Shown here: positions 3,588 to 62,578 of the stretch, in pieces | Position numbering within the stretch: the stretch's first letter is position 1 | Layout of the letters: each line of letters starts with the position of its first letter | Virus record (IMG/VR): IMGVR_UViG_3300044819_000016 | Coordinates: 1 to 64,000 of that record | Length of the DNA stretch: 64,000 nt | Reading direction: 5' to 3' (one strand) | From: a virus | Notes under the pieces: model-generated | Database searches by the model: none | What the model was told of the DNA's origin: nothing | Seen by the model: only the letters and a program-made list of their open reading frames with translations | Position numbers and translations under genes: made by a program

Positions 3588-3862
3588 CGCTTCACCCGCC
3601 GCGCTTCCCACTGTCTGACGCCGGACACCCGTCGCTCCTGCCAGCCAGCGGCCAGAAGGTACTGCCTGATCTCGCGCCTGAACGCCGTGGACGTTGGGCG
3701 CTCCCCGAGGACCTTGGCAACCGCATCCGTGACGAGCTGGGCCTGGATCCACTCGTCCTTTCCGCGCTCGAACCCTGCCGCCAGGACGGCTCCCTTCCAT
3801 TGAACCCGGCGCTTGAATTCTGAGAGCAGGAGCGCGGCGACCTCCTCCGGTGAGAGCGTCAC
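3575..3862 (-). CDS. Small - strand protein, unknown function
   Basis: 95 residues, starting with GTG at 3862-3860, which overlaps the stop of the - strand gene upstream (GTGA coupling). The first half reads LSPEEVAALLLSEFKRRVQWKGAVLAAGF, likely helical. The second half, with TSTAFRREIRQYLLAAGW, looks like a small helical DNA- or protein-binding fold, but I cannot name a family. It forms a two-gene operon with the gene at 3859-4185, against the direction of all its neighbours. Confidence 0.55.
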   Translation of the reverse strand: MTLSPEEVAALLLSEFKRRVQWKGAVLAAGFERGKDEWIQAQLVTDAVAKVLGERPTSTAFRREIRQYLLAAGWQERRVSGVRQWEARRVKRQAR

Positions 3863-4185
3863 TCGCCGGCCGCCGCTTTCTTTCGTGCGATGTCGGCGTC
3901 CGCGGCTGCCTTCCACTGTAGGTAGGGGACTATCGAGATGGGGGCGATCTGGAAGTTCCCCCGGTCCCACATCTCGTAGGGCTTCAGAGCAGACGGGTAG
4001 GCGTAGCTGCCGGCGAGGACCACCTCGACGACCATGTCCGCGTCCGTTGGAACCTCGGTTGATCCTGGAAGTTGAGATGACAGCCACTCCCGACTGGGAG
4101 CTTTGCGAAAAACCAGCATCCCTCCGATCTCCTCGGCTGGAAGTGGACCATCGACAAAGGTTCGAGCAGGGGCGCGTGGGTTCAT
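3859..4185 (-). CDS. Small - strand protein, unknown function
   Basis: 108 residues starting at ATG 4185 (reverse) with GGAGG shortly before it on that strand. The sequence is mixed alpha/beta, with an acidic middle (TDADMVVEVVLAGSYAYPS) and an Ala-Lys-rich end. No family recognised. It is the first gene of the two-gene - strand operon. The intergenic region 4186-4272 between it and the divergent + strand gene carries inverted and direct repeats suitable for an operator. Confidence 0.55.
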   Translation of the reverse strand: MNPRAPARTFVDGPLPAEEIGGMLVFRKAPSREWLSSQLPGSTEVPTDADMVVEVVLAGSYAYPSALKPYEMWDRGNFQIAPISIVPYLQWKAAADADIARKKAAAGE

Positions 4186-4211: not shown

Positions 4212-4262
4212 GTAGTTCGTGTAGTTACAAGAATTGCACAACTACGATTCTCTTTGTACCCT
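4212..4262. promoter_or_regulatory. Divergent intergenic region with GTAGTT repeats
   Basis: GTAGTT occurs at 4212-4217 and 4221-4226 (9-bp spacing), and its complement AACTAC at 4240-4245, forming an inverted repeat with a 13-bp spacer. A weak + strand promoter candidate overlaps it: TTGCAC at 4234-4239, 17 bp, TACCCT at 4257-4262. The region separates divergent genes and is AT-richer than its surroundings. An operator function is an inference. Confidence 0.35.
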
Positions 4263-4272
4263 GAATTACACG

Positions 4273-4494
4273 ATGCCTTCGTCGTTTCATGACTGGCTGG
4301 CTCCGCGCTGCTCCTGCTTCGAGTGCGCCGCGAAGCGTGCCAACGACGGCGTCGAGGTCCGCATCCGTTCCTTCATAACCCTCGAAGCCGCTCCTCCCCG
4401 GGCGATTATCCAGTTCGGTGACACCGCATTCTTCGAAGGCGACACTGACCCGAGCGCGATGCCCACCCGCCGAAAGCGGTCTCCTCGCAAGTGA
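4273..4494 (+). CDS. Small protein carrying a capsid C-terminus-like segment
   Basis: 73 residues from ATG 4273. The middle part, DGVEVRIRSF followed by ITLEAAPPRAIIQF, closely parallels the extreme C-terminus of the major capsid protein (DGVEVRIRSF, ETLTLEGAASWATIQLA). At DNA level 4343-4374 and 15053-15084 are identical over 32 bp. Upstream residues include CSCFECAAK, a possible metal site not found in the capsid. Whether this is a working protein, a decoy of the capsid end or a scar of recombination is unknown. Its stop overlaps the GTG of the next gene. Confidence 0.5.
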   Translation: MPSSFHDWLAPRCSCFECAAKRANDGVEVRIRSFITLEAAPPRAIIQFGDTAFFEGDTDPSAMPTRRKRSPRK

Positions 4495-5054
4495 AAGCGC
4501 CGTCGGCAAAGCTGACTGCAGCGTGGGCTAAGCGCCTTGCGCAATCAGGCTTTGACGATCTGGAGGGCTCCGATCGCGACGCGCCGTTGTCCAACCGCGG
4601 CAAGCTTCACTCTGCCGGCGGCCAGGGCTTTCGGCAGAACGCCACCCCCAAGACCGCAGACTCGGCGGTAGGGGACGTCGGCGAGGACATGGTGGCTCTA
4701 TCCCTGCGCGTCGAGCACGGCTCCGCGTGGACGACGTGGGCCCTCGGGGTCCACCGCTCGCTCTCCCGGTCCTCGGCTCGCCAGCGGCTTGCCCGGCGCA
4801 TCTGGGGACGCTGGGCGAATGGCGAGTCTATGAAAGCCATTTCCCGGACGCCGGGGTTCACGTTCCACCAGGTTCGGGAATCGATCATTGAAACGACAGA
4901 GAAGGAGAAGCGCAGATGCGACCAGGACAGAAACCACCTTCAAGCAATCCGCCAGATGCCCGACCAACAGCTGACGGCGCTTCTGAGGGCGGCGCTGGCA
5001 GTCCTCTCTCGACGCTCGGGCCCCAGCCGCTCCGTCAGCATGAATCAGACGTAG
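4491..5054 (+). CDS. Putative helix-turn-helix DNA-binding protein
   Basis: 187 residues from GTG 4491 (GTGA overlap). The middle region, ARQRLARRIWGRWANGESMKAISRT and on to VRESIIETTEKEKRR, reads like a helix-turn-helix of the kind found in phage regulators. The first 65 residues are polar and low-complexity. The last 45 residues overlap the next gene in another frame by 139 nt, an unusually long overlap here, so the C-terminal end may be poorly conserved. A regulatory role is inferred from the HTH only. Confidence 0.5.
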   Translation: MKAPSAKLTAAWAKRLAQSGFDDLEGSDRDAPLSNRGKLHSAGGQGFRQNATPKTADSAVGDVGEDMVALSLRVEHGSAWTTWALGVHRSLSRSSARQRLARRIWGRWANGESMKAISRTPGFTFHQVRESIIETTEKEKRRCDQDRNHLQAIRQMPDQQLTALLRAALAVLSRRSGPSRSVSMNQT

Positions 5055-7662: not shown

Positions 7663-7805
7663 CCAGGCTCCAGGGGATGCGCAAGGAGGACGTCGACCGC
7701 GCGATTTTCGAACGTCAACAGCCGCCGTCCGCTCGCTCTGATCCGTCACCCGCTCAGATAGCCGAATTGCAGTATCGGACCACCGCGCTCATCAACACCA
7801 AGTGA
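7482..7805 (+). CDS. Small protein upstream of the large terminase; candidate small terminase
   Basis: 107 residues from ATG 7482. The sequence has a helical DNA-binding flavour (KVDVYRVLEIFQVTSPAIQHAVKKLL, then a charged RGGKDFDQDLEEAIQALTRLQG). Its position directly before the terminase, with a GTGA overlap, is typical of a small terminase subunit, but at 107 residues it is short and no HTH can be assigned with certainty. Confidence 0.5.
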   Translation: MEVNKYLRDCPYSKVDVYRVLEIFQVTSPAIQHAVKKLLCTGIRGGKDFDQDLEEAIQALTRLQGMRKEDVDRAIFERQQPPSARSDPSPAQIAELQYRTTALINTK

Positions 7806-9478
7806 TCGCTCTCCCGTCCATCCCGCCGACCACCGCCGCCGGCATCGCGACGCTGATGGCGCAGACGCGCGTGGTCTCGCGCGCCTCTGCCGTGAAGCAG
7901 ACGGTGACGCTGGCCCAAATCGCCGATGGACACGGGCCCCAACTTGAGCTGATGGAGCGGTGCGCAGAGCTTGCCGAGGATGGCACGTTCAAGCACCGCA
8001 ACGTCATCGCCATCGCCTCCCGTCGCGCCGCCAAGTCGACATCGATCTGCGGAATCCTGGCGACCGACGGCTCACAGTACGACGGCGTCCAAATCTACTT
8101 CGGCAAGAACAAACCGGCTGTTCGCCTCAGCATCTGGACGAAGGTCTGGAAGCCGTTCCTCCGGAAGCACTTCGGCCCCCCGGGCGGCAACTACAGCCTG
8201 AACGAAACGTCGATGGTGACGACGTTCCTGTCGGGCGGCATCGTGGCGTTCACGGGAACTGACGACGTCTCACACATCGAGAACTACCTCGGTAACAAGC
8301 TGCGCCGGGCCATCCTCGACGAGGTCCAGAGCCAGCCGTCTCGCGTCCTGAATCCCCTGATCGACCGCATCCTTCCGCCCGCTCTTTCGGATGTCGGCGG
8401 TCAGATGATCCTGGCCGGCACGATCCCCGATGTCCCTGCCGGCGAGTTCTACGAAATCTGGATGACGGGCGAGGGCTGGCTCAAGCGGAATTGGAGCCGC
8501 TTCGAGAACCCGCACCTCGGGACCGTCGAGCACCAGATGAAGGAACTGGGCATGTACCTCCGGGCCTCCAAGCGCAAGATCGACGACCCCCTTGTCCAGC
8601 GCGACTGGTTCGGGAAATTCGTCTTCGATTCGAGCGCGACCGCCTATCAGTATGATCCCTCGAAGAACGCCTATCTGCCGGTCGAGCCGCCGTGGTTCGA
8701 CGAGTGGCTTCGCCAGTTCGAGGGCGATCTTGCCTTCCCGAATATCCACCGGACGATCGAGCCCGACGACGGGACCGCGCGGCACGGCATCATGGCGGCC
8801 ACGCCGCTCCCCGGGATCGAGGTCTTCGCCTGCGCCATTGACCCGGGCGCCGGTGACAGGTTCTCGGTTGTCGTCACCGGCTGGGGAACAGGGACTCAGT
8901 CAGTCCAACAGGTGTTCGAGTTCTCGGGCCCGCGGAATGCGAACTTCTCGTGGTCGATGATCGATCCCATCCGCCGGGCGATCCAGGCCCACTACGCGCC
9001 GTCCTGGTGGTTCTATGACGCCGGTGGCTCGAAGGTCGTCCTCGACACGTTCGTTGGGGATACCCAACTCCCGGCCCTCCAGCCGGCGAAGAAGGCTACC
9101 GCCGTCCGGCACCAGGTGGCCCGCGTCTCGGACATCGCCCGGAAGGGCTGGCTCCAGATCATGAGCGGATCGGCGCTGGAGGAGGACCTCCAAAAGTGCC
9201 GATGGGACCCGGGCGCCCGCGCCAAGATGGAATGGAAGATGTCCACGACCTGGCACCCCGATCCGGCCGACAGCTTCAGGTACACCCTGGAGGCGTACTT
9301 CGACATCTACGACGCGCCCGAGAAGGAGAAGACCGACGAGGAGCGCGACCGCGAGAAGCACGACAAGGACGTGCGGCGCGCGTCCGCCCGGCGGATGGCC
9401 AACATGCTCCCCGAGGACGCCGACGAGATGTACGCCCGCCAGGACGAAGCCGAGGGAGATGGAAGTGGGCAATGGTAG
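7802..9478 (+). CDS. terL: Terminase large subunit (packaging ATPase and nuclease)
   Basis: 558 residues from GTG 7802. The N-terminal ATPase has a Walker A-like IASRRAAKST at residues 71-80 and a Walker B RAILDEVQ around 169-176 with catalytic Glu174. The C-terminal RNase H-fold nuclease shows an acidic residue in CAIDPGAGDRFSV, then WWFYDAGGSK, and DPADSFRYTLEAYFD. It would power DNA translocation through the portal and cut packaged DNA. The last 60 residues are a charged tail. Length is usual for the family. The stop overlaps the start of a 62-residue frame. Confidence 0.9.
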   Translation: MIALPSIPPTTAAGIATLMAQTRVVSRASAVKQTVTLAQIADGHGPQLELMERCAELAEDGTFKHRNVIAIASRRAAKSTSICGILATDGSQYDGVQIYFGKNKPAVRLSIWTKVWKPFLRKHFGPPGGNYSLNETSMVTTFLSGGIVAFTGTDDVSHIENYLGNKLRRAILDEVQSQPSRVLNPLIDRILPPALSDVGGQMILAGTIPDVPAGEFYEIWMTGEGWLKRNWSRFENPHLGTVEHQMKELGMYLRASKRKIDDPLVQRDWFGKFVFDSSATAYQYDPSKNAYLPVEPPWFDEWLRQFEGDLAFPNIHRTIEPDDGTARHGIMAATPLPGIEVFACAIDPGAGDRFSVVVTGWGTGTQSVQQVFEFSGPRNANFSWSMIDPIRRAIQAHYAPSWWFYDAGGSKVVLDTFVGDTQLPALQPAKKATAVRHQVARVSDIARKGWLQIMSGSALEEDLQKCRWDPGARAKMEWKMSTTWHPDPADSFRYTLEAYFDIYDAPEKEKTDEERDREKHDKDVRRASARRMANMLPEDADEMYARQDEAEGDGSGQW

Positions 9479-9681: not shown

Positions 9682-9903
9682 ATGGATTCGAAACGGCTGA
9701 AGCCGATCCTGAAGGCCCTGCGGGAGGCAAACGTCGCGAAGTTCACGCTTGGCGACATGATCATCGAGTTTCAGCCACCGATCCCGCCTGAATTCGTCGT
9801 TTCCGGTGAGGAGACCACCCCGAACCAGGACATGATCCTGCCGGACGGGATGTTCGACCCCCGGGCCAAGCTCGCTGAAATCAACCGCAAGGTCAGCCAG
9901 TGA
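9682..9903 (+). CDS. Small head-region protein
   Basis: 73 residues from ATG 9682, preceded by the GATCGG-type start motif rather than a clear Shine-Dalgarno. Sequence: a basic helical start (MDSKRLKPILKALREANV), then FTLGDMIIEFQPPIPPEF and an acidic end. It overlaps the portal gene by GTGA, so it may be made together with the portal. Function unknown. Confidence 0.6.
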   Translation: MDSKRLKPILKALREANVAKFTLGDMIIEFQPPIPPEFVVSGEETTPNQDMILPDGMFDPRAKLAEINRKVSQ

Positions 9904-12035
9904 GCAAGGTGACCAAGACGGCTCGGGGCTCCAAGCCGATTGGTCTTGGCCAGTCGAACGAGATCAAGACCTTCGACTTCTCGGGCGACGCCCTCAACCA
10001 GGGCCCGGGCCCGCGCCGCTGGTGGGACATCGACGAGATGTCAGGTGGCCTCGGGAGCGCCCCGAGCGGTTCGAACAAGACCGACCAGGACTCGGTCGAG
10101 AATTCGATGGCCGCCGCCATGGTGAACGCCGCCCGGTTCATCGAGAAGAGTCCCAGCGAACAGCTGCGCTACGACCTGAACCTGCTGTACGGCTCGCTCT
10201 ACGAGGGGCGCGAGCTTACGAACCTCTACCAGTACGGGGGCCAGTCGATGGTCACCGGCGGCGGCGCGAACGTGGGGCCTGGAGCCGTCGGCCAGATCAC
10301 CTGGAACGTGATCCGCTCTGTCGTGCAGACGGTGGCCTCCCAGGTATCGCGCAGCCGCCCGCGCGCCCGGTTCATTACCAGCGGCGGCTCGGGCAAGCAG
10401 AAGCGCCGGGCCAAGAAGCTGACGACGTTCTGCGATGGGCTTTTCACGGAGGCTCGGGTCTACGAGAAGACCCAGCAGGCGTTCATCTGCGCCGGGGCCT
10501 TCGACATCGCCGGGATCCAGGTCTTCCGCGAGCACGACCGGGTCGCCGTCGAGCTGGTCCGAGCCGCCGAGATCATGATCGGCGCGAACGACGGCATCGA
10601 CGCCAAGCCACGGGCCATGTACCGGCGCAAGTTCGTGGACCGCGGCGTCCTGATCAACAAGTTCGCGAAGGGGAAGGCAAACGAGGAGCGGCGCAACGCG
10701 ATCATGTCGGCGCACAAGGCCGACCCTGTCGGTGACCAGTCAGGCTCCAACCTGGTCGAGGTCTACGAGGCGTGGCACTTGCCAAGCGGACCGGACGCGA
10801 ACGACGGGTGGCACATCATGGCCATCGACGCCTCGGCGACCGGAAGCGGCGGCCGGCTGATGGTCGAGCCGTACAAGAAGAAGTACTTCCCGATCATCCT
10901 GTTCTGCTTGGATCCGGCGCTCTCGGGCCCCTACGGTGTCTCTGCCGCCGCGACGTTGCTCCCGATCCAGCTTGCGGTGAACGTGGCGCTCGACCGCATC
11001 GCACGGGCCCAGCACCTGGCCTGCCGCCCCGGCGTCTGGGTCCCTCTCGCATCGAAGGTCGCGAAGGGGCAGATCACAAGCGCGGTCGGCGCGGTGAACT
11101 ACTACGCCGGGCAGACGCCGCCGACGTTCTACACGCCCCAGGCGATGAGCCCCGAGGTCTACCAGCAGCTGGAGCGTCATTTCGAAAAGGCGTTCTCCCT
11201 GTACGGCGTGAACACCTCGGTGGCCTCCGGAACCAAGGAGGCTGGAACCACGTCAGCCGTCGCCATTCGCGAGTCCCTCGACGTGCAGACGGCGCGCTTT
11301 GCGGTGCTCTCCCAGCGGTGGGAACAGCTTCACCTCGACATCGCCAAGCTTGCGATCGACGTGGCGCGCGACATCTACCTCGACAACAAGGAGATGATGG
11401 TCTCGGCGCCTGGGACGGCTCTCCTCGAATCGATCGACTGGAAGGACGTCAACCTCGAAGAGGACGAGTACGTGATCCAGGCGTACCCGACCTCGCTCTT
11501 GCCGACGACCCCCCAGGGGCGAATCGACCGCGTCAACGAGCTGGTGACCTCGGGAATCTGGAGCCCGAAGCGCGGCGAGGCGGCGCTCGACGATCTCGAC
11601 ATCGAGACGGCAATGTCGGCCGACCGCGCGGCCGAGAAGAACGCCGAGCGGATGTGTGAGGCGATGCTCTACGACGGCGAGTATGAGGGGCCCGACCCGA
11701 CGAACGATCTGGTGGCCTGCCTGAAGATCGGGAGCCAGTACCTGGACGAGGGGCGCGGCGACAAGACGACCCCGCCGAAGAACCTCGACCTGCTCTACCG
11801 CTTTCTGGACGACGTGGCTGCACTGCAAGCGGCTCTCAATGCACCGCCGCCGGCCCCGGGCGCTCCTGCCCCCGGTGGACCTCCCCCGGGTCCTGGCGGC
11901 CCTCCTGGTGCGCCGCCGCCGATGCCACACCCTGCGCCCCCCCCGGGGTCACCACCCGGGCCTCCTCCCGCTCCGCCACCGGGGCCACCGGGGCCCCCGC
12001 CGCCCCCGCCGGCAGCCGCGCCGCCCCCGGCCTGA
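9900..12035 (+). CDS. Portal protein with a long proline-rich tail
   Basis: 711 residues from GTG 9900. Position after the terminase, length and composition fit a podovirus-type portal, the dodecameric ring through which DNA enters and leaves the head. The body (about residues 40-640) mixes helical and beta segments, including GGPSGPYGVSAAATLLPIQLAVN-like features in the wing/crown region. From about residue 645 to the end the sequence is almost only Pro, Gly and Ala (PPPAPGAP and similar), a disordered tail not usual in portals. Assignment rests on synteny more than on a single motif. Confidence 0.75.
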   Translation: MSKVTKTARGSKPIGLGQSNEIKTFDFSGDALNQGPGPRRWWDIDEMSGGLGSAPSGSNKTDQDSVENSMAAAMVNAARFIEKSPSEQLRYDLNLLYGSLYEGRELTNLYQYGGQSMVTGGGANVGPGAVGQITWNVIRSVVQTVASQVSRSRPRARFITSGGSGKQKRRAKKLTTFCDGLFTEARVYEKTQQAFICAGAFDIAGIQVFREHDRVAVELVRAAEIMIGANDGIDAKPRAMYRRKFVDRGVLINKFAKGKANEERRNAIMSAHKADPVGDQSGSNLVEVYEAWHLPSGPDANDGWHIMAIDASATGSGGRLMVEPYKKKYFPIILFCLDPALSGPYGVSAAATLLPIQLAVNVALDRIARAQHLACRPGVWVPLASKVAKGQITSAVGAVNYYAGQTPPTFYTPQAMSPEVYQQLERHFEKAFSLYGVNTSVASGTKEAGTTSAVAIRESLDVQTARFAVLSQRWEQLHLDIAKLAIDVARDIYLDNKEMMVSAPGTALLESIDWKDVNLEEDEYVIQAYPTSLLPTTPQGRIDRVNELVTSGIWSPKRGEAALDDLDIETAMSADRAAEKNAERMCEAMLYDGEYEGPDPTNDLVACLKIGSQYLDEGRGDKTTPPKNLDLLYRFLDDVAALQAALNAPPPAPGAPAPGGPPPGPGGPPGAPPPMPHPAPPPGSPPGPPPAPPPGPPGPPPPPPAAAPPPA

Positions 12036-13857: not shown

Positions 13858-15138
13858 ATGACTACCGGCGCAAATAGCACCACCGGCGTGAACTTTCTGA
13901 AGAAGTTCTACACGCCGAACTTCATCGTGAACACCGTCTCCGGGAAGGCTTCCCGCCTTTTCAATCTGATCACCCACAAGACCAACGGATCGGGGAAGGA
14001 CTACAACTTCCTGTCCGTGGTCGGCGACAACCCCTCGGGTTCGGCCGTCATGTCGAACAGCCAGAGCACCGGCACCGCGAGCATGCAGCAGGGCGTCCAG
14101 TTCGTGGTCCCGTGGTTCAACGACTACGAGACCCCGACCGTCGCTGGCGACTTGATCGCCAAGACCCGTAACGACCAGGGAGGTTGGCTCCCGGCCCTCA
14201 AGGCCGAAATGGATTCCTCGCTCCGGTACGCCGGGCACCGGAAGTCCATCGCCCTCTTCACCTCGGGTTGGGGCGAGTTGGGGCAGATCAGCGCCGCGCA
14301 GAACCTGACCCTCGCCGTCCTGACCCTGGCCGACCCGAGCGCGATCTACCGCTTCATTCCCGGGCAGCAGATCGTGTTCTCCGGAACGCTCAACTCCTCG
14401 CTGCTCCGCGGGAACGGCGACTTCCTGACGATCACCGGCGTGAACTACTCGACCGGCACGCTCCAGCTCTCTGCCGCGATCAACTCGATCGCAGCCGGCG
14501 CGGGTGGCGTGGTGGCCGTGTCGGACATCATTTTCATCAACGGCGACCGCCAGAACAGCGCCACTCCTTCTCTCCGTCGTCCGGTGGGCCTCGGCTCTCC
14601 TCTCGGTGGCGGGTGGGCTCCCATCGTCCAGCCGACCCCCGGTGAGTCGTTCTTCGGCCAGGATCGCACCCTGAACAGCTTCCTGACGAGCTTCTACATC
14701 GACGGGCGCTCTCAGCCCCTGCCGATGAGCTTCGTGCAGGCCGCGCAGACGACCTCCAGCATCGGCAACGCCGACACGCTGGTCGGTGTCTGCTCGCCGC
14801 GCCAGTTCTCGGTCCTCGCCAACTCGATGCAGGGACAGGTCCAGTACACCCAGATCACCGGCCGCGGTGGCGTGGCGTTCAAGACCATCATGGTCTACGC
14901 CGACGGCATCGAGCTGCCGGTCATCTCGGACAAGTACTGCGTGGACGGCGTCGCCTACGTGGGCGACCCGAAGACCCTCAAGCACACCTCGATCGGCGAG
15001 GCGCCGCACATCAACCACGACGACGGGCAGCAGATGGTCCGTCAGACCGGCGACGACGGCGTCGAGGTCCGCATCCGTTCCTTCGAGACGTTGACTCTCG
15101 AAGGCGCGGCTTCCTGGGCCACCATCCAGCTGGCCTAA
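13858..15138 (+). CDS. Major capsid protein
   Basis: 426 residues from ATG 13858, with AAGGGGA at 13841-13847. Position after the scaffold, length and a globular composition fit the main head protein, probably HK97-like fold (inferred). Early residues include NFLKKFYTPNFIVNTVSG, later a YDYETPTVAGDLIAK-like stretch typical of capsid N-arms and E-loops. The extreme C-terminus (DGVEVRIRSFETLTLEGAASWATIQL) is partly duplicated in the accessory gene at 4273. A stable hairpin follows the gene. Confidence 0.8.
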   Translation: MTTGANSTTGVNFLKKFYTPNFIVNTVSGKASRLFNLITHKTNGSGKDYNFLSVVGDNPSGSAVMSNSQSTGTASMQQGVQFVVPWFNDYETPTVAGDLIAKTRNDQGGWLPALKAEMDSSLRYAGHRKSIALFTSGWGELGQISAAQNLTLAVLTLADPSAIYRFIPGQQIVFSGTLNSSLLRGNGDFLTITGVNYSTGTLQLSAAINSIAAGAGGVVAVSDIIFINGDRQNSATPSLRRPVGLGSPLGGGWAPIVQPTPGESFFGQDRTLNSFLTSFYIDGRSQPLPMSFVQAAQTTSSIGNADTLVGVCSPRQFSVLANSMQGQVQYTQITGRGGVAFKTIMVYADGIELPVISDKYCVDGVAYVGDPKTLKHTSIGEAPHINHDDGQQMVRQTGDDGVEVRIRSFETLTLEGAASWATIQLA

Positions 15139-15152
15139 CCGGCTGACCTGAC

Positions 15153-15182
15153 GGCGAGGGCTTGAGCAATCGAGCCCTCGCC
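15153..15182 (+). terminator. Hairpin after the capsid gene
   Basis: Perfect 10-bp inverted repeat GGCGAGGGCT (15153-15162) and AGCCCTCGCC (15173-15182) with a 10-nt loop, without a T run. It could act as an mRNA 3'-end stabiliser or a weak terminator, adjusting expression after the highly expressed capsid gene. Confidence 0.55.
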
Positions 15183-15231
15183 TGACGGTCAACCATCCTC
15201 GAAATCGCCTCTCTGAAAGAAGGATCTTCAC

Positions 15232-16819: not shown

Positions 16820-18037
16820 ATGGCTCGCAAGGGCATCTACAACCGCGTCCAGGTCCCAAACGACTCCGATCTGTCGCGAGTCCAGGACGCGATCGCGAAA
16901 GCCTTCAGCCAGCTCTCCGTCGACGACGATCTGGTCAAGGCCCCGATCACCCCGGTCGCTTCGACCGCGAAGCTGGCCAACGGCAGCACGATCATCGTGT
17001 TCACCGGGAACACGGCTCAGATCATCACGCTCCCGCTCGCCAACTCACAGGGACAGGGCGTCGGGCAGGTCGCAATCTTCTCGAACGAGTCGGCGGCCAC
17101 CACGACCCTCGCCGCGCCGGGCAGCAACACGATCAACGGGGCCACGACCCTCGGGGTAGCCCCAGGGACCACGGTCCTCGCCACGAGCGACGGGCGCTCG
17201 AAGTGGCTCGCCATCTCTGGCCCGGGCGGCACGGGCGGCGGCGTCGGCCCGACCGGACCACAGGGCAACCAGGGCCCTCCGGGGTTCGGCCAGGACGCCG
17301 ACGAGCCCGAGGGCCCTTGGCTGGTGCCTGGGCGAACCGGGAACACCGGGGCTACAGGGAACACCGGACCACAGGGCAACCAGGGCCCTCCGGGGTTCGG
17401 CCAGGACGCCGACGAGCCCGAGGGCCCTTGGCTGGTGCCTGGGCGAACCGGGAACACCGGACCACAGGGCAACCAGGGCCCTCCGGGGTTCGGCCAGGAC
17501 GCCGACGATCCCGAGTTCCCCATGATGATCCCGGGTCCCCAGGGGCTTGTGGGCCCGACCGGCCCCTCCGGCCCCATCGGACTCCAGGGGTTCGGCCTCC
17601 CGGGCCAGGACGGCGAGGACGGGGCGGACGCCATTCCGATCCCCGGGACGCCCGGCGCCCCCGGCCTGATGGGCCCCGCAGGGCCCCAGGGAGCGCAAGG
17701 GACGCCCGCGCAGGACCCGGACGACCCAGAGGCCCCAATGTTCATCCCCGGGCCTCCTGGCGCAAATGGCGCGCCCGGGGCCATCGGCCAGACCGGCCTC
17801 GGGGTCTACATCCCCTCCCCCGACCCGGACGAGCCCGAGGCCCCTTGGCCGGTTCCCGGGCCCATCGGGGCGGTTGGGCCGGTTGGGCCGGTTGGCCCCA
17901 TCGGCGGCCCTGGCCTGCCTGCCGCCGATCCTGACGAGCCCGAGATGCCTTGGCTGGTCCCAGGCCCCCAGGGCCCGGGCGGCGGCGGCACCGTGACCAT
18001 CGACCAGGTCAAGATGATCGTGGGTCTCCGCGGGTGA
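16820..18037 (+). CDS. Collagen-like fibre protein
   Basis: 405 residues from ATG 16820. An N-terminal domain of about 130 residues (possible virion attachment) is followed by Gly-X-Y collagen-like repeats to the end. These are broken at regular intervals by an acidic insert of the type GFGQDADEPEGPWLVPG, with variants DDPEFPMMIPG, DPDDPEAPMFIPG, PDPDEPEAPWPVPG and ADPDEPEMPWLVPG. Such repeats form trimeric stalks in phage fibres. At DNA level the first units are near-identical copies (17252, 17363, 17456). The stop overlaps the next gene by GTGA. Confidence 0.75.
   Translation: MARKGIYNRVQVPNDSDLSRVQDAIAKAFSQLSVDDDLVKAPITPVASTAKLANGSTIIVFTGNTAQIITLPLANSQGQGVGQVAIFSNESAATTTLAAPGSNTINGATTLGVAPGTTVLATSDGRSKWLAISGPGGTGGGVGPTGPQGNQGPPGFGQDADEPEGPWLVPGRTGNTGATGNTGPQGNQGPPGFGQDADEPEGPWLVPGRTGNTGPQGNQGPPGFGQDADDPEFPMMIPGPQGLVGPTGPSGPIGLQGFGLPGQDGEDGADAIPIPGTPGAPGLMGPAGPQGAQGTPAQDPDDPEAPMFIPGPPGANGAPGAIGQTGLGVYIPSPDPDEPEAPWPVPGPIGAVGPVGPVGPIGGPGLPAADPDEPEMPWLVPGPQGPGGGGTVTIDQVKMIVGLRG
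17252..17510 (+). repeat. Near-identical collagen-module repeats
   Basis: The stretch ACCGGACCACAGGGCAACC and what follows recurs at 17252, 17363 and 17456 (offsets 111 and 93 bp). The first two copies continue through the DADEPEGPWLVPG insert and GRTGNTG. The near identity indicates recent in-frame duplication of a fibre module. Confidence 0.8.
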
Positions 18038-38348: not shown

Positions 38349-38362
38349 GAATGGGCCATCGC

Positions 38363-38380
38363 GATCGGACTGGCCCAACC
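38363..38380 (+). promoter_or_regulatory. Variant late-gene motif before the four-paralogue cluster
   Basis: GATCGGACTGGCCCAACC matches the motif, but here the ATG (38387) is 24 nt from GATC instead of 18. It lies upstream of the - strand gene as well and could serve either direction. Confidence 0.4.
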
Positions 38381-38386
38381 GAGCCC

Positions 38387-38767
38387 ATGAGCAAACCCCG
38401 GGTCACAACCCAGATTGTCACCAATGCGAACCTCGGTGCTCAGCCGATCGTGTCCTCGATCATCGACACCTGGCAGGTTGACGCCGGTAGCCTTGAGATT
38501 CAAGCCTCCGGCTCTGGGATCACCGGCACCCTGACCATCGAAGCGTCGAATCAGTACGATCCGAAGACGAACCCAACGCCGACCTTCGTCCCTCTGACAA
38601 CCACACCTGTCACTCCCGCATTCTCTGCACTCGGTGGGACAGGAGGAAGCTTCATCTACAGCTTCCTGCCGCCCGCTCTCGCGCCCAGGTTCATCCGGCT
38701 CCGCTTCGCTGGCGGTGGTGGCTCCGGGACGCTCAACGTCTTCGCCAACGTGACCGGGGCCGCCTGA
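38387..38767 (+). CDS. Paralogue 1 of a four-member beta-sandwich-like family
   Basis: 126 residues from ATG 38387. Conserved core shared with the three following genes: an E-[FI]-Q-[AI]-x-G segment, TIEASNQYDPKTNPTPTFVPL, and RFIRLRFAGGGGSGTLNVFANVTGAA at the end. All have a Trp/Tyr/Val/Ile-rich beta pattern with about 130 residues, as in small beta-sandwich domains. Late location suggests a surface or tail-tip component. Specific role unknown. Confidence 0.7.
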   Translation: MSKPRVTTQIVTNANLGAQPIVSSIIDTWQVDAGSLEIQASGSGITGTLTIEASNQYDPKTNPTPTFVPLTTTPVTPAFSALGGTGGSFIYSFLPPALAPRFIRLRFAGGGGSGTLNVFANVTGAA

Positions 38768-39189
38768 TGTCGAGGCTCCTGCTCTACCAGCCCGTGATCC
38801 AGTCGTTCGGGACGAACAACGCCAACGGCACCGTGGCGTTGCTGTCGCCGGTGATCGAGGTCTGGCCCTACTACTTCCTGTCGGCCGAGGCGAAATGGAC
38901 GGGGACCCCCTCGGGAACGTTCTCCTGGGAGGCGTCGAACCAGTACCACCCGATCACGAACCCGAACGCGACGTTCGTTACGATCGATTCTTCCTTCGTC
39001 CAGTTCATCGGAAGGATCGGCGGATCGACGTCGCCAGCCGGATCGGCCGGATCGAGCTTCACGTCCGTCAACCTGTTCGGCTCGCAGACCATCGCCGCGC
39101 TCGGGACCAGGTGGCTTCGGCTCCGCTACACCAATGCATCTGGCGCCGGCCCACTCGACGTCTGGTTCTCAGCAGAAGGGTACGACTAA
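38767..39189 (+). CDS. Paralogue 2 of the four-member family
   Basis: 140 residues from ATG 38767 (TGATG overlap). Same core: FSWEASNQYHPITNPNATFVTI and RWLRLRYTNASGAGPLDVWFSAEG. It has an extra loop (RIGGSTSPAGSAGSSFTS) not present in the other members. N-terminus more hydrophobic (LLLYQPVIQSFG). Confidence 0.7.
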   Translation: MSRLLLYQPVIQSFGTNNANGTVALLSPVIEVWPYYFLSAEAKWTGTPSGTFSWEASNQYHPITNPNATFVTIDSSFVQFIGRIGGSTSPAGSAGSSFTSVNLFGSQTIAALGTRWLRLRYTNASGAGPLDVWFSAEGYD

Positions 39190-39582
39190 ATGAGCAAGCC
39201 GCATGCAACATACAAAATCTTCTCCGGCGCAGTGATGTCGGGGACGAACACGATCGTGTCAGTCGCGATCGAGACGTCAATGATCGACGTCGCCGCTGGC
39301 GTCGAGTTTCAGATCACAGGCAACCCTACTGCTGGCGCCGGATTTACGTTGGAGGGTTCGAACCAGTACGATCCGTTCAATAATCCGAACGCGACGTTTA
39401 TTCCACTGGCTGTTGCTATGACCCCTGCACTCACGAGCCCTACAGCGGGAGCGCCGGCTTCGCAGTTGTGCGCATTCAGCCCCACGTCGCATCTACCATT
39501 TCGTTGGCTCCGGTTCCGATATGTAAACGCATCCGGATCCGGTACCATAGATGCCTGGGTCAATCACACGGGAGCCGCGTAG
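39190..39582 (+). CDS. Paralogue 3 of the four-member family
   Basis: 130 residues from ATG 39190, directly after the previous stop. Core: GVEFQITGNPTAGAGFTLEGSNQYDPFNNPNATFIPL and RWLRFRYVNASGSGTIDAWVNHTGAA. One cysteine (QLCAF). Same size and pattern as its neighbours. Confidence 0.7.
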   Translation: MSKPHATYKIFSGAVMSGTNTIVSVAIETSMIDVAAGVEFQITGNPTAGAGFTLEGSNQYDPFNNPNATFIPLAVAMTPALTSPTAGAPASQLCAFSPTSHLPFRWLRFRYVNASGSGTIDAWVNHTGAA

Positions 39583-39584
39583 TC

Positions 39585-39971
39585 GTGCGCCGAATCCTGA
39601 ATACGAAACTCGTCGACCCAGCGGGAACGAACAACATGACCGGAACGGCCACGATCTTGTCGTCCGCCATCGAGACGTTTCCTTATGACAACTCCATTTC
39701 GTTCGAGATCCAGGCGACCGGGACACCGACTGGGACCCTCACGATGGAGGAGTCGAGCCAATACGATCCGGTGAACAACCCGAACGCCGCTTTCGTGCCC
39801 ATGAATCCAATCTTCAATGGAGTCGCTATTCCGACGTTCTCAGGCGCTCCCGTGTCGGCGTTCTGTACTCACACGCGCGCGGCCATGGGGAAATGGCTTC
39901 GACTTCGATACGTCAACTCTTCCGGGTCGGGACAACTCTCGATCTGGGCCTTCGGAAAAGGGAAAAACTGA
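39585..39971 (+). CDS. Paralogue 4 of the four-member family
   Basis: 128 residues from GTG 39585, two bases after the previous stop. Core: SFEIQATGTPTGTLTMEESSQYDPVNNPNAAFVPM and KWLRLRYVNSSGSGQLSIWAFGKG. The QYDP-x2-NPNA motif and the C-terminal LRLRY are as in the others. Confidence 0.7.
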   Translation: MRRILNTKLVDPAGTNNMTGTATILSSAIETFPYDNSISFEIQATGTPTGTLTMEESSQYDPVNNPNAAFVPMNPIFNGVAIPTFSGAPVSAFCTHTRAAMGKWLRLRYVNSSGSGQLSIWAFGKGKN

Positions 39972-39972
39972 A

Positions 39973-40305
39973 ATGGCAATCGATCCGAATCCGCTACGCA
40001 ACCGAATCAAGATCATCCTGACGACAGCCGCTCTCACCATCGCGTCCTTGGCGGCCTCCGAGAAGGTATGGGGGCCACTGATCCCGACGTGGCTGCTCGC
40101 CGACCTCGACAAAGGCATCGGCCTCGCGGAACACCTCGCAGTCCTGGCCGGTGTCCTCGGCGCCAGTCCGCTCGGGCGCCTGATCTGGAAGGGCGATGGC
40201 CCCGATCTGTCGCCGCTGACCCAAGCCAATCACACGCCGTCGGGGACCGACGTCGTGATCACCCAGTCCCTCAAGAAGCCGCCCACGGAAGGATCCAAGT
40301 CATGA
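39973..40305 (+). CDS. Small membrane protein, possible holin
   Basis: 110 residues from ATG 39973. Two hydrophobic segments are visible: IKIILTTAALTIASLAASEKV (about residues 12-32) and GLAEHLAVLAGVLGASPLG (about 48-66). The remaining tail is hydrophilic. Location just before lysis-type genes (protease, endolysin) supports a holin or related role, but sequence alone does not prove it. Confidence 0.5.
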   Translation: MAIDPNPLRNRIKIILTTAALTIASLAASEKVWGPLIPTWLLADLDKGIGLAEHLAVLAGVLGASPLGRLIWKGDGPDLSPLTQANHTPSGTDVVITQSLKKPPTEGSKS

Positions 40306-45632: not shown

Positions 45633-45844
45633 GCGTCACGCGCGTCGTACCAGAGACCGACGGAGAACAGGCTATCCGTTGGTGCAAACTGGCGGGTGAT
45701 CGGCTGAAAAAAATTTGGCGTCTGGAGGCTCGCATCCGCGAGCAGGATGCCGCCCTGAATGAGAAGGATCGTCTCCTGAAAGTCGCTGAGGAGAACGCGG
45801 CGGCTCTGAGGATTGCGGTTGCCGCATTGTGGGAACGACGATGA
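45629..45844 (+). CDS. Small coiled-coil protein
   Basis: 71 residues from ATG 45629 (ATGA overlap). A heptad-like helix covers most of it (RLEARIREQDAALNEKDRLLKVAEENAAALRIAVAAL). Unknown function; its stop overlaps the helicase start. Confidence 0.55.
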   Translation: MSVTRVVPETDGEQAIRWCKLAGDRLKKIWRLEARIREQDAALNEKDRLLKVAEENAAALRIAVAALWERR

Positions 45845-47247
45845 AGATCACAGCCGACAACCTGTGGGCGCACGTCGAGGGGACACAAGCGGAGCGCGAC
45901 TTGCTCCGCCTGTACCTGACGGTCCAGGTCAAGAACGCGGAGCACACGGAGTCGTACCAGAGCGGGCATTGGGATGGGACGGTGAAGTTGTTCGACGGTC
46001 GGCGGGAGCGGTTCGCGACTGGGCTCGTCCGCATGGTTGTCGGCTACTGCCGCGAGAAGGGTGTACCGGCCGAGGTCGTGGATGCGAGGGCTCCGCACGA
46101 GACGCGCATCCTTCCCGGCGGGGGATGGCTCCGTCAGTACCAGGCGGAGGCGGTGGAGGCGATGGTCCGCCGGGGACGAGGGATCCTGATGGCTCCGACC
46201 GGCGCGGGGAAGACGGAGATCGCCGCCCGGCTCACCCAGGCCATCCCTTGCCGCTGGCTGATCCTGGTGGACACCCGCGACCTGATGCACCAGATGGCCG
46301 AACGGATTGCCCTGAGGACAGGAGAGCCCGGCGGCCTGGCTGGGGACGGTGAGTGGTCGCCGCGTAGGGTGACCGTGGCGACCCTCCAGACCCTGCTCCA
46401 GGGGATAGGCCAAGGCGGCCCCGTGGATCGCCTCCTGGAGGGAGCCCAGGGGCTCATAGCGGACGAGGTACAGGTCCTCGCCGCCGACGAGTTCAGGAAG
46501 GTCGCGATGGCCACCCCGAACGCCTGGTGGAGGTTCGGAATCTCGGCCACGCCGCTCGAACGCGAGGACGAGGCGGACTACCGGGCCATCGAGGCGCTTG
46601 GGCCATTGATCCACGAGATTCCGGTGGAGACCCTGTTCGAACTGGGGCACCTGGCTCGCCCCGAGATCCTGATGGTCGAGTTCCCGCAGCCCAGGATGAC
46701 CGGCAGCTACCCGGAGATCTACGAAGCCGGGGTGGTCTTGTCGGACGCCCGCAACGCCCTGGTGGCCAAACTCGCCGCTCGATACCACGCTCCGCGCCCG
46801 ACGCTGGTGTTCTTCAAGTCCATCTATCACGGGAAGGTCCTGGCTCGGGAGATCGGCAAGACCGCGGAGGTCGAGGTGGTCTCTGGCGTCCACGGGACGA
46901 AACAGCGCGACAAAGCACGGGGCAGACTCACCCGTGGCCACACCGAGGTTCTGATCACGAGTCGAATCTTCAACAAGGGGATCGACATCCCTGAAGCCCG
47001 CTCCGGCATCAACGCCGCGGGGGGCGCCAGTCGGATCGACGCCCTCCAGAAGGTCGGGCGCGGGATGCGGGTGGTACCCGGCAAAACGACCTTCAGGTAC
47101 TGGGACATCTTGGACACCGGGAATTACAACCTGGAGGGCCACGCCAGGAAGCGCATCGAAGCGTACCGAAGCCGAAACTACAACGTGCGAGTCGTCCGCC
47201 AGCGGGAGCTGGACGCCGTGCTCGCCCAGATGGAGAACACACCATGA
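45841..47247 (+). CDS. Superfamily 2 helicase, UvsW-like
   Basis: 468 residues from ATG 45841 (ATGA overlap). Helicase motifs in order: Walker A APTGAGKTE (about 118-126), motif II ADEVQ (about 206-210, in place of DEAH), motif III ISATP, motif IV-like LVFFKSIYHGKVLA, V (ITSRIFNKGIDIPEA) and VI (QKVGRGMRVV). The N-terminal 90 residues resemble the UvsW-type accessory domain. UvsW drives branch migration and helps recombination-dependent replication in T4-like phages; this fits the RecA and SbcCD genes further downstream. Confidence 0.8.
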   Translation: MKITADNLWAHVEGTQAERDLLRLYLTVQVKNAEHTESYQSGHWDGTVKLFDGRRERFATGLVRMVVGYCREKGVPAEVVDARAPHETRILPGGGWLRQYQAEAVEAMVRRGRGILMAPTGAGKTEIAARLTQAIPCRWLILVDTRDLMHQMAERIALRTGEPGGLAGDGEWSPRRVTVATLQTLLQGIGQGGPVDRLLEGAQGLIADEVQVLAADEFRKVAMATPNAWWRFGISATPLEREDEADYRAIEALGPLIHEIPVETLFELGHLARPEILMVEFPQPRMTGSYPEIYEAGVVLSDARNALVAKLAARYHAPRPTLVFFKSIYHGKVLAREIGKTAEVEVVSGVHGTKQRDKARGRLTRGHTEVLITSRIFNKGIDIPEARSGINAAGGASRIDALQKVGRGMRVVPGKTTFRYWDILDTGNYNLEGHARKRIEAYRSRNYNVRVVRQRELDAVLAQMENTP

Positions 47248-57301: not shown

Positions 57302-58303
57302 ATGGCTCGACCGAAGAAGATCAAGACCGAGAAGGAACCGAAGGCGAAGGCGACCGAGAAGACGTTCGCCGAGCGCGCCGCCGAGATGCTCCGCGCCGAG
57401 TTCGGAGAGGAGTCAGCGGATACCCTGGCGGACGGCGGCTACTCCAAGGTCCACGCCGTGCTGCCAACCGGCCTCGAAGTCCTGGACCGCTGGGTCATCG
57501 GGATCGGTGGCCTGCCCTACGGAAGGATCATCGAGATCAGCGGCCCCGAGGACGTTGGGAAGTCGAGCCTGATTAATGCTCTGATGGCCGCTGCACAGCG
57601 CGATGGCGCGGTGGCTTGCTTGGGGGATGCTGAGCGCAAGGTGCAGCCAGAATGGGTCGATACGTTCGGCGTGAACCGCAAGGAGATCATCCTCCTGCCG
57701 GCGGAGACGGTGGAACAGTTCCTCAGCCAAATCCGCATGATGCTTCGGAAGTACGGCAAGACAAAGAAGATGGTTTTCATCCTCGACTCGGTGGCTACCT
57801 GCATGCCGAAGAAGGCACTTGAGTCCGACCTGAACGAGGCGGAGATCCCTGGTGCGATGGGAGCCGCCTGGAGCCGTGGTCTCCGGGCCCTGCACAAAGC
57901 CCTCTCATCGAGCAATTCGATGCTTGTCTTAACGAACCAGCAGAGATCAAAGATCGGGGTCCTTTTCGGTCCAACCGAGGACACTCCAGGAGGCCGCGCG
58001 ATCAAGCACTATGCCTCGTTGCGGCTTGGAATGTTTCATGGAAAATCGGTCAAGGATGGTGACCGCCACGTAGCGAAGTGGGCGAACGTTCGCGTGCTGA
58101 AGAACCACCTCGGGCCCGGGGCGAACCACCGCAAGGCGGCCATCCTCCTCGATTTCAAAGCTGGATGGGACGACGGCAAATCGACGCTCTATCACGCGCG
58201 CGAGGTCGGCTGCGCGGACGCGAACACGCGGTCTGTCGAGGAGGCGAGGAAGAACCTCGGGTGGTCAGTCGTCGAGGACGCCGGTCTCCCCGGGGCGGCC
58301 TGA
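57302..58303 (+). CDS. RecA/UvsX-like recombinase
   Basis: 333 residues from ATG 57302 with GTCAGGAGGAA just upstream. A charged N-terminus is followed by the RecA core: Walker A ISGPEDVGKSS (about 79-89), Walker B-type FILDSVATCMPK, the loop LTNQQRSKIGVLFGPTEDTPGG, and later KWANVRVLKNHLGPG. A shorter C-terminus than host RecA fits phage UvsX-type proteins. It would drive strand exchange in recombination-dependent replication and repair, with the SSB and SbcCD genes next to it. Confidence 0.85.
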   Translation: MARPKKIKTEKEPKAKATEKTFAERAAEMLRAEFGEESADTLADGGYSKVHAVLPTGLEVLDRWVIGIGGLPYGRIIEISGPEDVGKSSLINALMAAAQRDGAVACLGDAERKVQPEWVDTFGVNRKEIILLPAETVEQFLSQIRMMLRKYGKTKKMVFILDSVATCMPKKALESDLNEAEIPGAMGAAWSRGLRALHKALSSSNSMLVLTNQQRSKIGVLFGPTEDTPGGRAIKHYASLRLGMFHGKSVKDGDRHVAKWANVRVLKNHLGPGANHRKAAILLDFKAGWDDGKSTLYHAREVGCADANTRSVEEARKNLGWSVVEDAGLPGAA

Positions 58304-58586: not shown

Positions 58587-58847
58587 GTGGCCAAGCAACC
58601 ATCCAAGATGCCGAATCCGTGCGACCAGTGCGGCGGCGAAGAGTGGCACGCCCCGGGGTCCAGGATCTGTAAACAGAACCGGGCCCGCAACGAGCAAGAC
58701 CGAACGGCCATCGAGGCGACGGTTCGCGAACAATCGCGGTGCATCGCCTGGATCCAGGAGTACCGGCGCCGCTCCTTGAATGCCTTCGATCCTGAGTTCC
58801 TGATCCTCGACATCGAGAGCGGACTGAACGCCGAGGACGAAGTATGA
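58587..58847 (+). CDS. Small zinc-type protein before the sbcD gene
   Basis: 86 residues from GTG 58587, chosen for its AAGGAG at 58575-58580 with 6-nt spacing. CDQCGGEEWHAPGSRIC (Cys-x2-Cys ... Cys) suggests a zinc site. The remainder is helical and charged. The stop overlaps the sbcD ATG. Unknown function. Confidence 0.5.
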   Translation: MAKQPSKMPNPCDQCGGEEWHAPGSRICKQNRARNEQDRTAIEATVREQSRCIAWIQEYRRRSLNAFDPEFLILDIESGLNAEDEV

Positions 58848-59986
58848 CCACCACGGCGAAGTCCAAGAAACCGAAGTACGATGTTGCCATCGTCGCCGAC
58901 GTTCACCTCGGGAACCACCGAGGATGGGGTGGCCCCGTGGGTACCGATGGGCTGAACCAAGCCGCGAGGCTCGGGATCGAGAGCCTGGTGGAAGCCATCG
59001 AGATCGCGAAGTCTGCCGGCTGCTCCGTCCTGATCGTGGCTGGTGATCTGTTCCAGACAGCGCGCCCCGAGCCGGCTCTCATCGCCGCCGTCCAGCACGC
59101 GATCACGGCAGGCGAGCTTCCCGTGGCCCTGATCCCTGGGAACCACGACATGCCTGACGCCACCGCCGAGAACGGCAACACGGCGCTTGCCCCGCTTTGG
59201 GACTGCGCCCAGATCGTTGGCAGTCCGGAGCGCATGGTGCTGAACACGTTCGCCATCGTCGCGGTACCGTTCGACGCCCGCGCCCCGATGCGCAATGTCC
59301 TGGACGAGTGCCCGCTCCTGGAGAAGCCAAACGCCGACGAGAGCCGGCGGACCATCCTTGTCACGCACGTTGGGGTCTACGATGACTTGGACGCCAAGTT
59401 GTCGCCCTGGGTTCGCCTGGCCAAGGACGGAATCTCGGACACGGAGATGTTCGCGATCATGAAGCGCGCCGGCATCCGCCTGGCGTTCGTGGGGAACTTC
59501 CACGAGCATCGGCAGTGGACGGACCCGGACGGCCGCACCATCATCCAGTGCGGCACGCTGGCGCCGCACAGCTTCTCGGACGCCGGGACTCACCAGCGCG
59601 GGCTCGTCATCCTGACGGACGGCGAGATGTTCAAGACGAGTGAGGCGCGCGGCGTCCGGTTCGTGAACCTTCGGGGAAATGACCCGAACCACCTCGCCAG
59701 CCTCACCCAGGGGATCAGCAAGGGCAATCGCTACGTGGTTCGGCAGACGGGCGGCGCGCGCTGGGAGGAGTCGGAGATCAAGGAGCTTCTGGCCTACGAG
59801 TGGGTCCCCCAGAAGGCGCCGACCGAGAAGGCCAGCGGGGGCCCGGCGCCGACGTCCGCCCCCGATCCGATGGCCGCGCTGACGGCGCACCTCGCTGCCG
59901 CCCCGATGCCGCCTGGACTGGACTCGACCGTGGCGCGCGCCAGCGTGCTCGCGCTGGTCAAAGACTTTTGGAAACGCTCCGCCTGA
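58844..59986 (+). CDS. SbcD/Mre11-like exonuclease subunit (gp47-like)
   Basis: 380 residues from ATG 58844 (ATGA overlap). Metallophosphatase motifs in order: ADVHLGNH (19-25), AGDLF (66-70), IPGNHD (97-102), THVGVY and GNFHEH. A Pro/Ala-rich linker (about 335-350) precedes a helical end. It forms a complex with the SbcC-like ATPase at 60437 to trim DNA ends and create single-strand tails for the RecA-like protein. Two small genes separate the pair. Confidence 0.85.
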   Translation: MTTTAKSKKPKYDVAIVADVHLGNHRGWGGPVGTDGLNQAARLGIESLVEAIEIAKSAGCSVLIVAGDLFQTARPEPALIAAVQHAITAGELPVALIPGNHDMPDATAENGNTALAPLWDCAQIVGSPERMVLNTFAIVAVPFDARAPMRNVLDECPLLEKPNADESRRTILVTHVGVYDDLDAKLSPWVRLAKDGISDTEMFAIMKRAGIRLAFVGNFHEHRQWTDPDGRTIIQCGTLAPHSFSDAGTHQRGLVILTDGEMFKTSEARGVRFVNLRGNDPNHLASLTQGISKGNRYVVRQTGGARWEESEIKELLAYEWVPQKAPTEKASGGPAPTSAPDPMAALTAHLAAAPMPPGLDSTVARASVLALVKDFWKRSA

Positions 59987-60201: not shown

Positions 60202-60440
60202 GCAGCGCTGAGAAGGCATGCCTGGAGTTCTATGTCGCCAGCCGGGAGCTTCTCCTGATCGAAGGCGCATGGGCGACCAGGGATCGGGACGTCAACATCG
60301 GGCGTTCACTGAACGAAGCCACCCAGTACCAGGCCGACAAGGAGAAGGCGACCTTGAGGGTCAAGAATGCCGAGTTCGAGATCAAGAACATCGGCGCGTT
60401 TCTCTACGAGAAGGGGCGCCCGAGCGCGGTGCCGCGATGA
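60198..60440 (+). CDS. Small helical protein between sbcD and sbcC
   Basis: 80 residues from GTG 60198 (GTGA overlap). Charged and helical (AEKACLEFYVASRELLLIEGAWATRDRDVN ... YQADKEKATLRVKNAEFEIKNIGAFLYEKG). The stop overlaps the sbcC-like ATG. Function unknown. Confidence 0.55.
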   Translation: MSSAEKACLEFYVASRELLLIEGAWATRDRDVNIGRSLNEATQYQADKEKATLRVKNAEFEIKNIGAFLYEKGRPSAVPR

Positions 60441-62101
60441 TCGTCCGCCGGATCCTCCTGACCGACTTCTTGCGCTACAAGGATGCGACCATCGACCTGC
60501 CCGAGGTCGGGCTCGTGGCGTTCTGTGGCCTGAACGGTAGCGGAAAGAGCAGCTGTCTGGAGGCTATCGCTTGGACGCTCTGGGGTCGCTCCCTCCGCGG
60601 CGCCGACGACCCGGGCCCCGCCGGCTCCGCGACCGCCATGCTTGACGACGGGTTCCATATCGAGCGCCAACGCTCCGGCCGCACGACCAAGGGCCTGACC
60701 CTGTCCACCGCCGCCGAGTCCCTGTCCGGCCAGACCGTGACCCAGACCCAGGTCAAGATCGTGGAGCGCTGGGGGACCTTCGAGCGGTTCGCGGCAACCA
60801 GGGTGTTCGGCCGTGACCTCCTGTCCAGGTTCGGCACGGCGACCAACAGGGAGCGTCAACAGCTCCTGGAGTCCATCCTCGGGTTCGAGCAGTTCTCCCG
60901 GGCAGAGAAGCTGGCCCGGGTCGAGCTTTCGACGCGGCGCTCGGCCCAGGACGGGGCGGACTCGGCCCTCCGGTACGCCGAGAAGGTGCTCCAGGACGCG
61001 CAGGAGCGCGCCCAGGGCTCGGGACCGCCCCCGAACCTCCTGGTGCTCCAGGACGAGATAGACGCGGCCCTACGCGCACGCCAAGCAGCGGAGGAGGCCA
61101 TCGCGAAGGCGCGCGCCGCCCGCGACCGCTCCGCGTCCCTTCTCGACCGCCAGCGCCGGGCCCGGTATGACGCTGGTCACGAAGCCGACCAGGCCAAGGC
61201 CGAGACGATGGTGGCGGCCGGCAAGATCCAGGCGGCCCGCAAACTGCTGGAGTGCCCGGTGTGCCTCCGGGGCGCGTCCGAGGAGGACAGGGGCGTCATC
61301 GTCGCCCACCACCAGGCGACCCTCAACGCCGCCGCCAAGCGCAAGGCGGACGCCATGAACCTCATCGAGGCGCTCGATGCCGACATGGAGGACCTCGGCG
61401 CCCAGGTCGCGATCCACGACAAGGTGATCCGAGCCGCCGACCAAGATCGGAGCGTCGCGTCCATCGCCTACGAGCAAGCCAAGGCAGACCTCAGGGTGGC
61501 CCAAGCCGCCAATGCCCAGGCCATGCGCGCCGCCGACGAGATCGACAAGGCGCAATCCTTGGTCACAGAGACCACCCAGATCGCCACCACGGCACGGGCA
61601 GTCGTCCAGCAGGCCCAGGCAGCCGTCGAGGCCCTTGGGCCCCGTGGCGCGCGTCTCAGGCTGTTCAGCGACGCCCTGCAACGCCTGGAAGCCGAGACCA
61701 ACGCCGTGCTCGACCGCCTAGGAATGGGCCTCGCCGTCGAAATCTCGGCCCGCAAGACCCAGGCCAGCGGCAAGGAAGTGGACGAGGTCTCGATCACGCT
61801 CAAGGGCGCAGGTGCCGGCGAGTACCTCGGGGCGTCGGGCGGAGAGCGCACCCGCGTGGACGTCGCCATGATCCTGGCCCTCGGGCGCCTCTCGGGTGAC
61901 GGCGGCCTCCTGGCGTTCGACGAGGTGTTCGATCCCCTCGACGACGACGGCATCGAGCGCGTCTCTCAGTTGCTGGAGGAGCTTGCCGAGAAGCGCCAGG
62001 TCCTGGTGACGAGCCACAATCCCAGGCTCCTGGCGTCCATCCCAGCCAGTCAGATTCGCCGTGTCTCCCGGAACCCGGAAGGCGGATCGCAAATCACGTA
62101 G
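60437..62101 (+). CDS. SbcC/Rad50-like ATPase (gp46-like)
   Basis: 554 residues from ATG 60437 (ATGA overlap). Features in order: Walker A CGLNGSGKSSC (30-40), long coiled coil, zinc-hook CPVC around residue 273-276, second coiled coil, signature GASGGERTRVD, Walker B LLAFDEVFD and LVTSHNPR. This is the complete Rad50-type layout in the short phage form. It works with the 58844 nuclease to process ends. The 627-residue frame that opens upstream adds unrelated residues inside the preceding gene. Confidence 0.9.
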   Translation: MIVRRILLTDFLRYKDATIDLPEVGLVAFCGLNGSGKSSCLEAIAWTLWGRSLRGADDPGPAGSATAMLDDGFHIERQRSGRTTKGLTLSTAAESLSGQTVTQTQVKIVERWGTFERFAATRVFGRDLLSRFGTATNRERQQLLESILGFEQFSRAEKLARVELSTRRSAQDGADSALRYAEKVLQDAQERAQGSGPPPNLLVLQDEIDAALRARQAAEEAIAKARAARDRSASLLDRQRRARYDAGHEADQAKAETMVAAGKIQAARKLLECPVCLRGASEEDRGVIVAHHQATLNAAAKRKADAMNLIEALDADMEDLGAQVAIHDKVIRAADQDRSVASIAYEQAKADLRVAQAANAQAMRAADEIDKAQSLVTETTQIATTARAVVQQAQAAVEALGPRGARLRLFSDALQRLEAETNAVLDRLGMGLAVEISARKTQASGKEVDEVSITLKGAGAGEYLGASGGERTRVDVAMILALGRLSGDGGLLAFDEVFDPLDDDGIERVSQLLEELAEKRQVLVTSHNPRLLASIPASQIRRVSRNPEGGSQIT

Positions 62102-62114
62102 CCCCGGCTCCCCT

Positions 62115-62425: not shown

Positions 62426-62480
62426 CACGGGCCAGCCAGCCCCCGCGCGGAGCCGGTGCACAGTCCGGATTCCGGAAAAA

Positions 62481-62578
62481 AGCACGGAGCACGGAGCACG
62501 GAGCACGGAGCACGGAGCACGGAGCACGGAGCACGGAGCACGGAGCACGGAGCACGGAGCACGGAGCACGGAGCACGG
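62481..62578 (+). repeat. Heptanucleotide array, AGCACGG x 14
   Basis: Fourteen perfect copies of a 7-bp unit, 98 bp, following a GGAAAAA segment. The 7-bp period shifts frame each unit, so it would read as STEHGAR repeats in any frame. Nothing suggests a gene here. It lies about 60 bp before the early-type promoter at 62642. Confidence 0.9.

Follow-up and report, generated by a model that had tools for sequence, protein, structure and literature searches.

The small gene and its surroundings

The window, i.e. the whole stretch of 64,000 nucleotides that was analysed (positions 1 to 64,000 of IMG/VR record IMGVR_UViG_3300044819_000016), carries a small gene (4273-4494, plus strand) coding for a protein of 73 amino acids, which is located near the packaging genes and heads the gene run leading to them. 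It is flanked by a divergently oriented neighbour gene (3859-4185, minus strand) and by a gene coding for a protein of 187 amino acids (4491-5054, plus strand), which overlaps the small gene as GTGA. Promoter-like boxes (TTGCAC-N17-TACCCT; 4234-4262, plus strand) occur 10 bases before the ATG, so that the message from this predicted promoter would be nearly leaderless. These boxes were not listed by a stricter consensus promoter scan, and their support comes from their conservation in a relative, the 16.7-kb IMG/VR contig IMGVR_UViG_3300044821_000010 (G001), in which they read TTGCAC-N17-TACCTT (L007:391-419), the spacer being again 17 bases long and the distance to the ATG 7 bases. G001 is collinear with the window from the divergent neighbour gene (counterpart at L007:1-345, minus strand) through the capsid gene, and contains, in the same place and surroundings, a small gene coding for 63 amino acids (L007:427-618). 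Both small proteins possess an HDWLAPRCxCxxCAxKR amino end (4288-4338 in the window, plus strand), the CxCxxC of which suggests a putative metal-binding site, and a basic carboxyl end (KR-S/T-P). The small gene is a real, conserved gene, since these ends, the promoter-like boxes, and the GTGA overlap are common to the window and G001.

No reliable match to the small protein was obtained with Pfam, PHROGs, or NCBIfam, and solved structures gave chance-level matches only. Searches of IMG/VR with the protein, with the alignment, and with the degenerate pattern D-W-L-x-P-R-C-x-C-x2-C retrieved G001 as the only relative of the small gene; the other matches to this pattern were unrelated reading frames. 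Similarly, bacterial and archaeal genomes queried with the neighbour gene and terminase, as well as plasmids queried with terminase (tblastn), yielded no further contig covering the small gene, and tblastn searches of phage records with the small gene, the neighbour, terminase, portal, and capsid genes yielded no further relative of it. A second relative (G002) is collinear, and its contig starts just past the small gene.

Repeats of other kinds were observed elsewhere in the window. Two arrays of a degenerate GGCTCC/GGCTAC/GGCGAC repeat (94-1123) contain an exact 66-bp duplication (110-175 = 438-503), and a collagen-like tail fibre gene (17252-17973) is built with 111-nt repeats, and one of these units is found again at 20467. 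Four consecutive genes (38351-40305), coding for proteins of about 130-160 amino acids, have a 48-nt repeat in common and are likely a tandem family. In addition, six AATTCGAAAGAGGGTCTTCGAATTTTTC-like units (62103-62432) lie where no gene is obvious and are closely followed by perfect tandem copies of the 7-mer AGCACGG (62481-62581).

The capsid gene and the segment shared with the small gene

The gene that shares sequence with the small gene codes for a protein of 426 amino acids (13858-15138, plus strand) and follows the genes for terminase (7802-9478) and portal protein (9900-12035). Its product matches the NCBIfam model NF033394, 'phage major capsid protein', over residues 8-394 (E-value of 1.2e-6), with a score of 28 bits against a curated cut-off of 80. 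This sub-threshold match, combined with the gene order, indicates that it is likely the major capsid protein; none of the solved structures matched it. The capsid protein of G001 is 91% identical to that of the window, and both end with DDGVEVRIRSFET-x-TLEGAASWATIQL.

The last third of the capsid gene together with its downstream region (14668-15195) looks constrained or recently exchanged relative to G001, as four-fold sites differ in 8 of 76 cases over codons 271-420, compared with 49 of 138 before. The 60 bases from the capsid stop codon onwards are identical in the window and G001 and contain a 13-bp hairpin (GGCGAGGGCUUGA-GCAA-UCGAGCCCUCGCC) without a T run.

As claimed in the preliminary description, positions 4343-4374 of the small gene (codons 24-34, plus strand) equal positions 15053-15084 near the 3' end of the capsid gene (plus strand), the identity being exact over 32 bp with a mismatch at the first base beyond either end. 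The copies are read in the same frame in both genes. This repeat is the sole exact match of at least 20 bp between sites of the window more than 3 kb apart; in 20 sequences simulated with a fifth-order Markov model, the longest distant exact repeat measured 16-20 bp. Similarity goes on to the right in diverged form, for, once a gap of 6 nt is allowed, 29 of the 42 bases at 4375-4416 (plus strand) are identical to 15091-15132. For random in-frame pairs tried at seven shifts, the probability of attaining 29 matches is about 6e-6, and, when the small-gene stretch was compared with 12,480 in-frame coding windows, no other exceeded 23 matches. A chance origin of the repeat was rejected on the basis of both the simulations and this continuation. 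The identical tract thus occurs at two non-allelic places above chance expectation, as in ectopic gene conversion or short-tract copying. The whole related stretch comprises about 74 nt in the small gene and 80 nt in the capsid gene, the first 32 of which are identical; upstream of 4343, no similarity to the capsid gene was seen. At the protein level, the continuing similarity reads VRIRSF..ITLEAAPPRAIIQF in one and VRIRSFETLTLEGAASWATIQL in the other, which bears out the earlier claim that protein similarity continues over diverged DNA. A 14-base exact, in-frame match (DPSA) also exists between 14332-14345 of the capsid gene and the 3' part of the small gene; a second copied piece was envisaged to account for it, but the match is compatible with chance, as another 14-base match occurs on the opposite strand elsewhere.

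The record being a metagenomic contig, an assembler might have placed capsid sequence into the small gene, a reading that is scarcely credible given that both flanks are collinear with G001, that the frame of the small gene is open, and that misassembly would not give rise to the 13 differences over the 42-base continuation. A further alternative is that the 32 bp constitute a DNA or RNA element, such as a binding or recombination site, held identical by selection. This would fit the abrupt change from no differences in 32 bp to 31% alongside, as well as a short palindrome inside the repeat (CGACG-G-CGTCG). Such an element is nevertheless very improbable, since it does not occur in G001's small gene, has no additional sites in the window or in G001, and gives no match in Rfam.

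Direction and age of the copy

The middle of the small protein reads ANDGVEVRIRSFITLEAAPPRAIIQFG in the window and LREGGWIPWDEIPSINRPLAFVLYGG in G001, where the capsid segment is missing and where the middle of the small gene matches the capsid gene not beyond chance. The preliminary description had taken a lack of the small gene or of its reading frame in relatives as its refutation; both are present in G001, and it is the capsid-like part that is absent from there. The possibility that the whole small gene derives from the capsid gene was rejected, as G001 has the gene without the segment; most likely, on comparison of the two genomes, the small gene predates its capsid-like segment. Since both capsid genes encode DDGVEVRIRSFET and the small gene of G001 lacks the segment, the simplest reading is that the small gene acquired capsid sequence by copying, rather than the capsid gene receiving it from the small gene, and that this took place in the lineage of the window. 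The segment may instead have been lost in G001, which is the one relative that covers the small gene. The tract is kept in the source gene of this relative and missing from the target, and the window has a complete capsid gene, collinear with its G001 counterpart, so that the source was retained after the event, again as in ectopic gene conversion.

As to the timing, about half of the four-fold sites differ between the window and G001 in the next gene (33 of 61) and in the terminase gene (114 of 227). Against this divergence, the 32 bp are unchanged, and, at the only one of these positions that distinguishes the two capsid genes, the small gene has the base of the window's capsid gene, which speaks for a recent event. 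The differences are, however, unevenly spread, namely 0 of 32 in the repeat and 13 of 42 (31%) in the continuation, whereas a single copy would be expected to diverge uniformly. When 13 differences are placed at random over 74 positions, a run of at least 32 matches arises in about 0.3% of the placements, so that one uniform copy is insufficient. The juxtaposition of 32 identical bp and a stretch that is 31% diverged favours either an older copy that was recently overwritten or a donor whose end was different. Copying followed by divergence, as formerly claimed, is hence supported, with two amendments: the small gene itself is most likely older, and the 32 bp and the 42 nt seem to be of unequal age.

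A donor with a different 3' end might be the capsid gene of a related, co-infecting phage and not the window's own capsid gene. The diverged part need not stem from the latter, since, among its sites that distinguish the two capsid genes, the small gene shares the base of the window's capsid gene once and that of G001's twice; moreover, the 32-bp region is conserved among capsid genes (31 of 32 in G001). We consider this unlikely, as the informative base within the 32 bp is that of the window's own capsid gene, and the 3' end too is conserved between the two known capsid genes. In addition, an exact 25-mer from the repeat was retrieved in IMG/VR only from G001; the record of the window itself would be a further match, if that search includes it.

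Mechanism, possible function, and significance

The finding is, in our judgement, rather probably a scar of intragenomic (ectopic) recombination, whereby a fragment of the capsid 3' end came to lie in frame in the middle of an older small gene. The middle of this gene would have been overwritten by capsid 3'-end sequence in the window's lineage, most likely through strand invasion or template switching at short homologies, the source being kept, and the conserved CxCxxC amino end and basic carboxyl end would have been retained through the replacement. The agent may have been phage machinery of the RecA/SbcCD type, acting during replication or break repair. Indeed, the window encodes, all on the plus strand, a RecA/UvsX-like recombinase (57302-58303), an SbcD-like nuclease subunit (58844-59986), an SbcC-like subunit (60218-62101), and a DNA helicase with a weak match to UvsW (45829-47247), and these candidate agents could, judged by their similarities, make such a copy.

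Known systems resemble this event in part. UvsX of phage T4 joins DNA ends at homologies of 3-13 nt (PMC8262927), and a RecA/UvsX-type recombinase with SbcCD- and UvsW-like partners is encoded here as well; junctions of a few bases suffice in T4. Those T4 events are, however, deletions at nuclease cuts, whereas here a distant segment was apparently copied in and its source retained. Similarly, lambda Red recombines genes that are 22% diverged (PMC2327257), and both lambda Red and Rad52-like recombinases (PMC3945230) join similar, diverged sequences into mosaic genomes. In these cases, diverged versions of related sequences recombine, in nature between phages or with prophages (PMC2327257, PMC3945230), whereas in the window the source gene and the target gene are unrelated and lie in a single genome.

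Most likely, the capsid-derived stretch is no capsid effector, and its substitution for a variable middle part was simply tolerated. The target frame must stay open, because the conserved carboxyl end has to be kept; yet a neutral event does not require the frame to be the same in both genes, which counts against a neutral copy. This equal frame would be explained if the segment had long had a function in the small protein, as a mimic of the capsid toward assembly or a host sensor, and had been lost or changed in G001 while repeated conversion kept it similar to its source. In agreement with that, second codon positions are the best preserved in the diverged part (12 of 14 unchanged, versus 9 at first and 8 at third positions), and a fresh identical part adjoins it. 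Furthermore, capsid homologues able to change capsid size exist (Ccm; PMC8569155), and bacterial immunity can sense capsid protein (PMC9712102). An old functional segment is nonetheless decidedly unlikely, as it is missing from the only orthologue, comprises about 25 residues and no capsid domain, and has no structural support, the AlphaFold2 models being too weak for use (mean pLDDT of 27 for the capsid protein and 55 for the small protein). More doubtful still is that the small protein is a selected capsid-strand mimic, maintained by repeated gene conversion and tuning assembly or blocking host capsid sensors.

Ccm of SaPIbov5 (PMC8569155) also represents capsid-gene-derived sequence outside the phage's capsid gene. 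It is a satellite-encoded protein of 355 residues that adopts an HK97-like fold and has 24% identity with the capsid protein of the helper, unlike the small protein of the window, in which about 25 of the 73 residues are capsid-like, within an otherwise unrelated, phage-encoded protein, and which thus does not contain a whole capsid-protein domain. The suggestion, offered in the preliminary description as speculation, that a capsid-end mimic acts on assembly or capsid size is therefore unsupported, given about 25 residues that are missing from the only orthologue found. Control of capsid size, or a role as immune decoy, is a possible function of the small protein that finds no support here. 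The small gene is probably independent of its capsid-derived middle, because its orthologue in G001 lacks the segment and is intact.

Small genes of unknown origin abound in phages, and their gain of sequence is rarely visible. In the present case, the source, the target, and the frame can be examined alongside a relative that lacks the copy, so that a structural gene can be seen to have given codons, as we infer, to an unrelated gene, and this example could be dated given more relatives. The repeat is a genuine record, clearer than is usual, of DNA having been reshuffled within one viral genome, and it is not in itself the sign of a new system.
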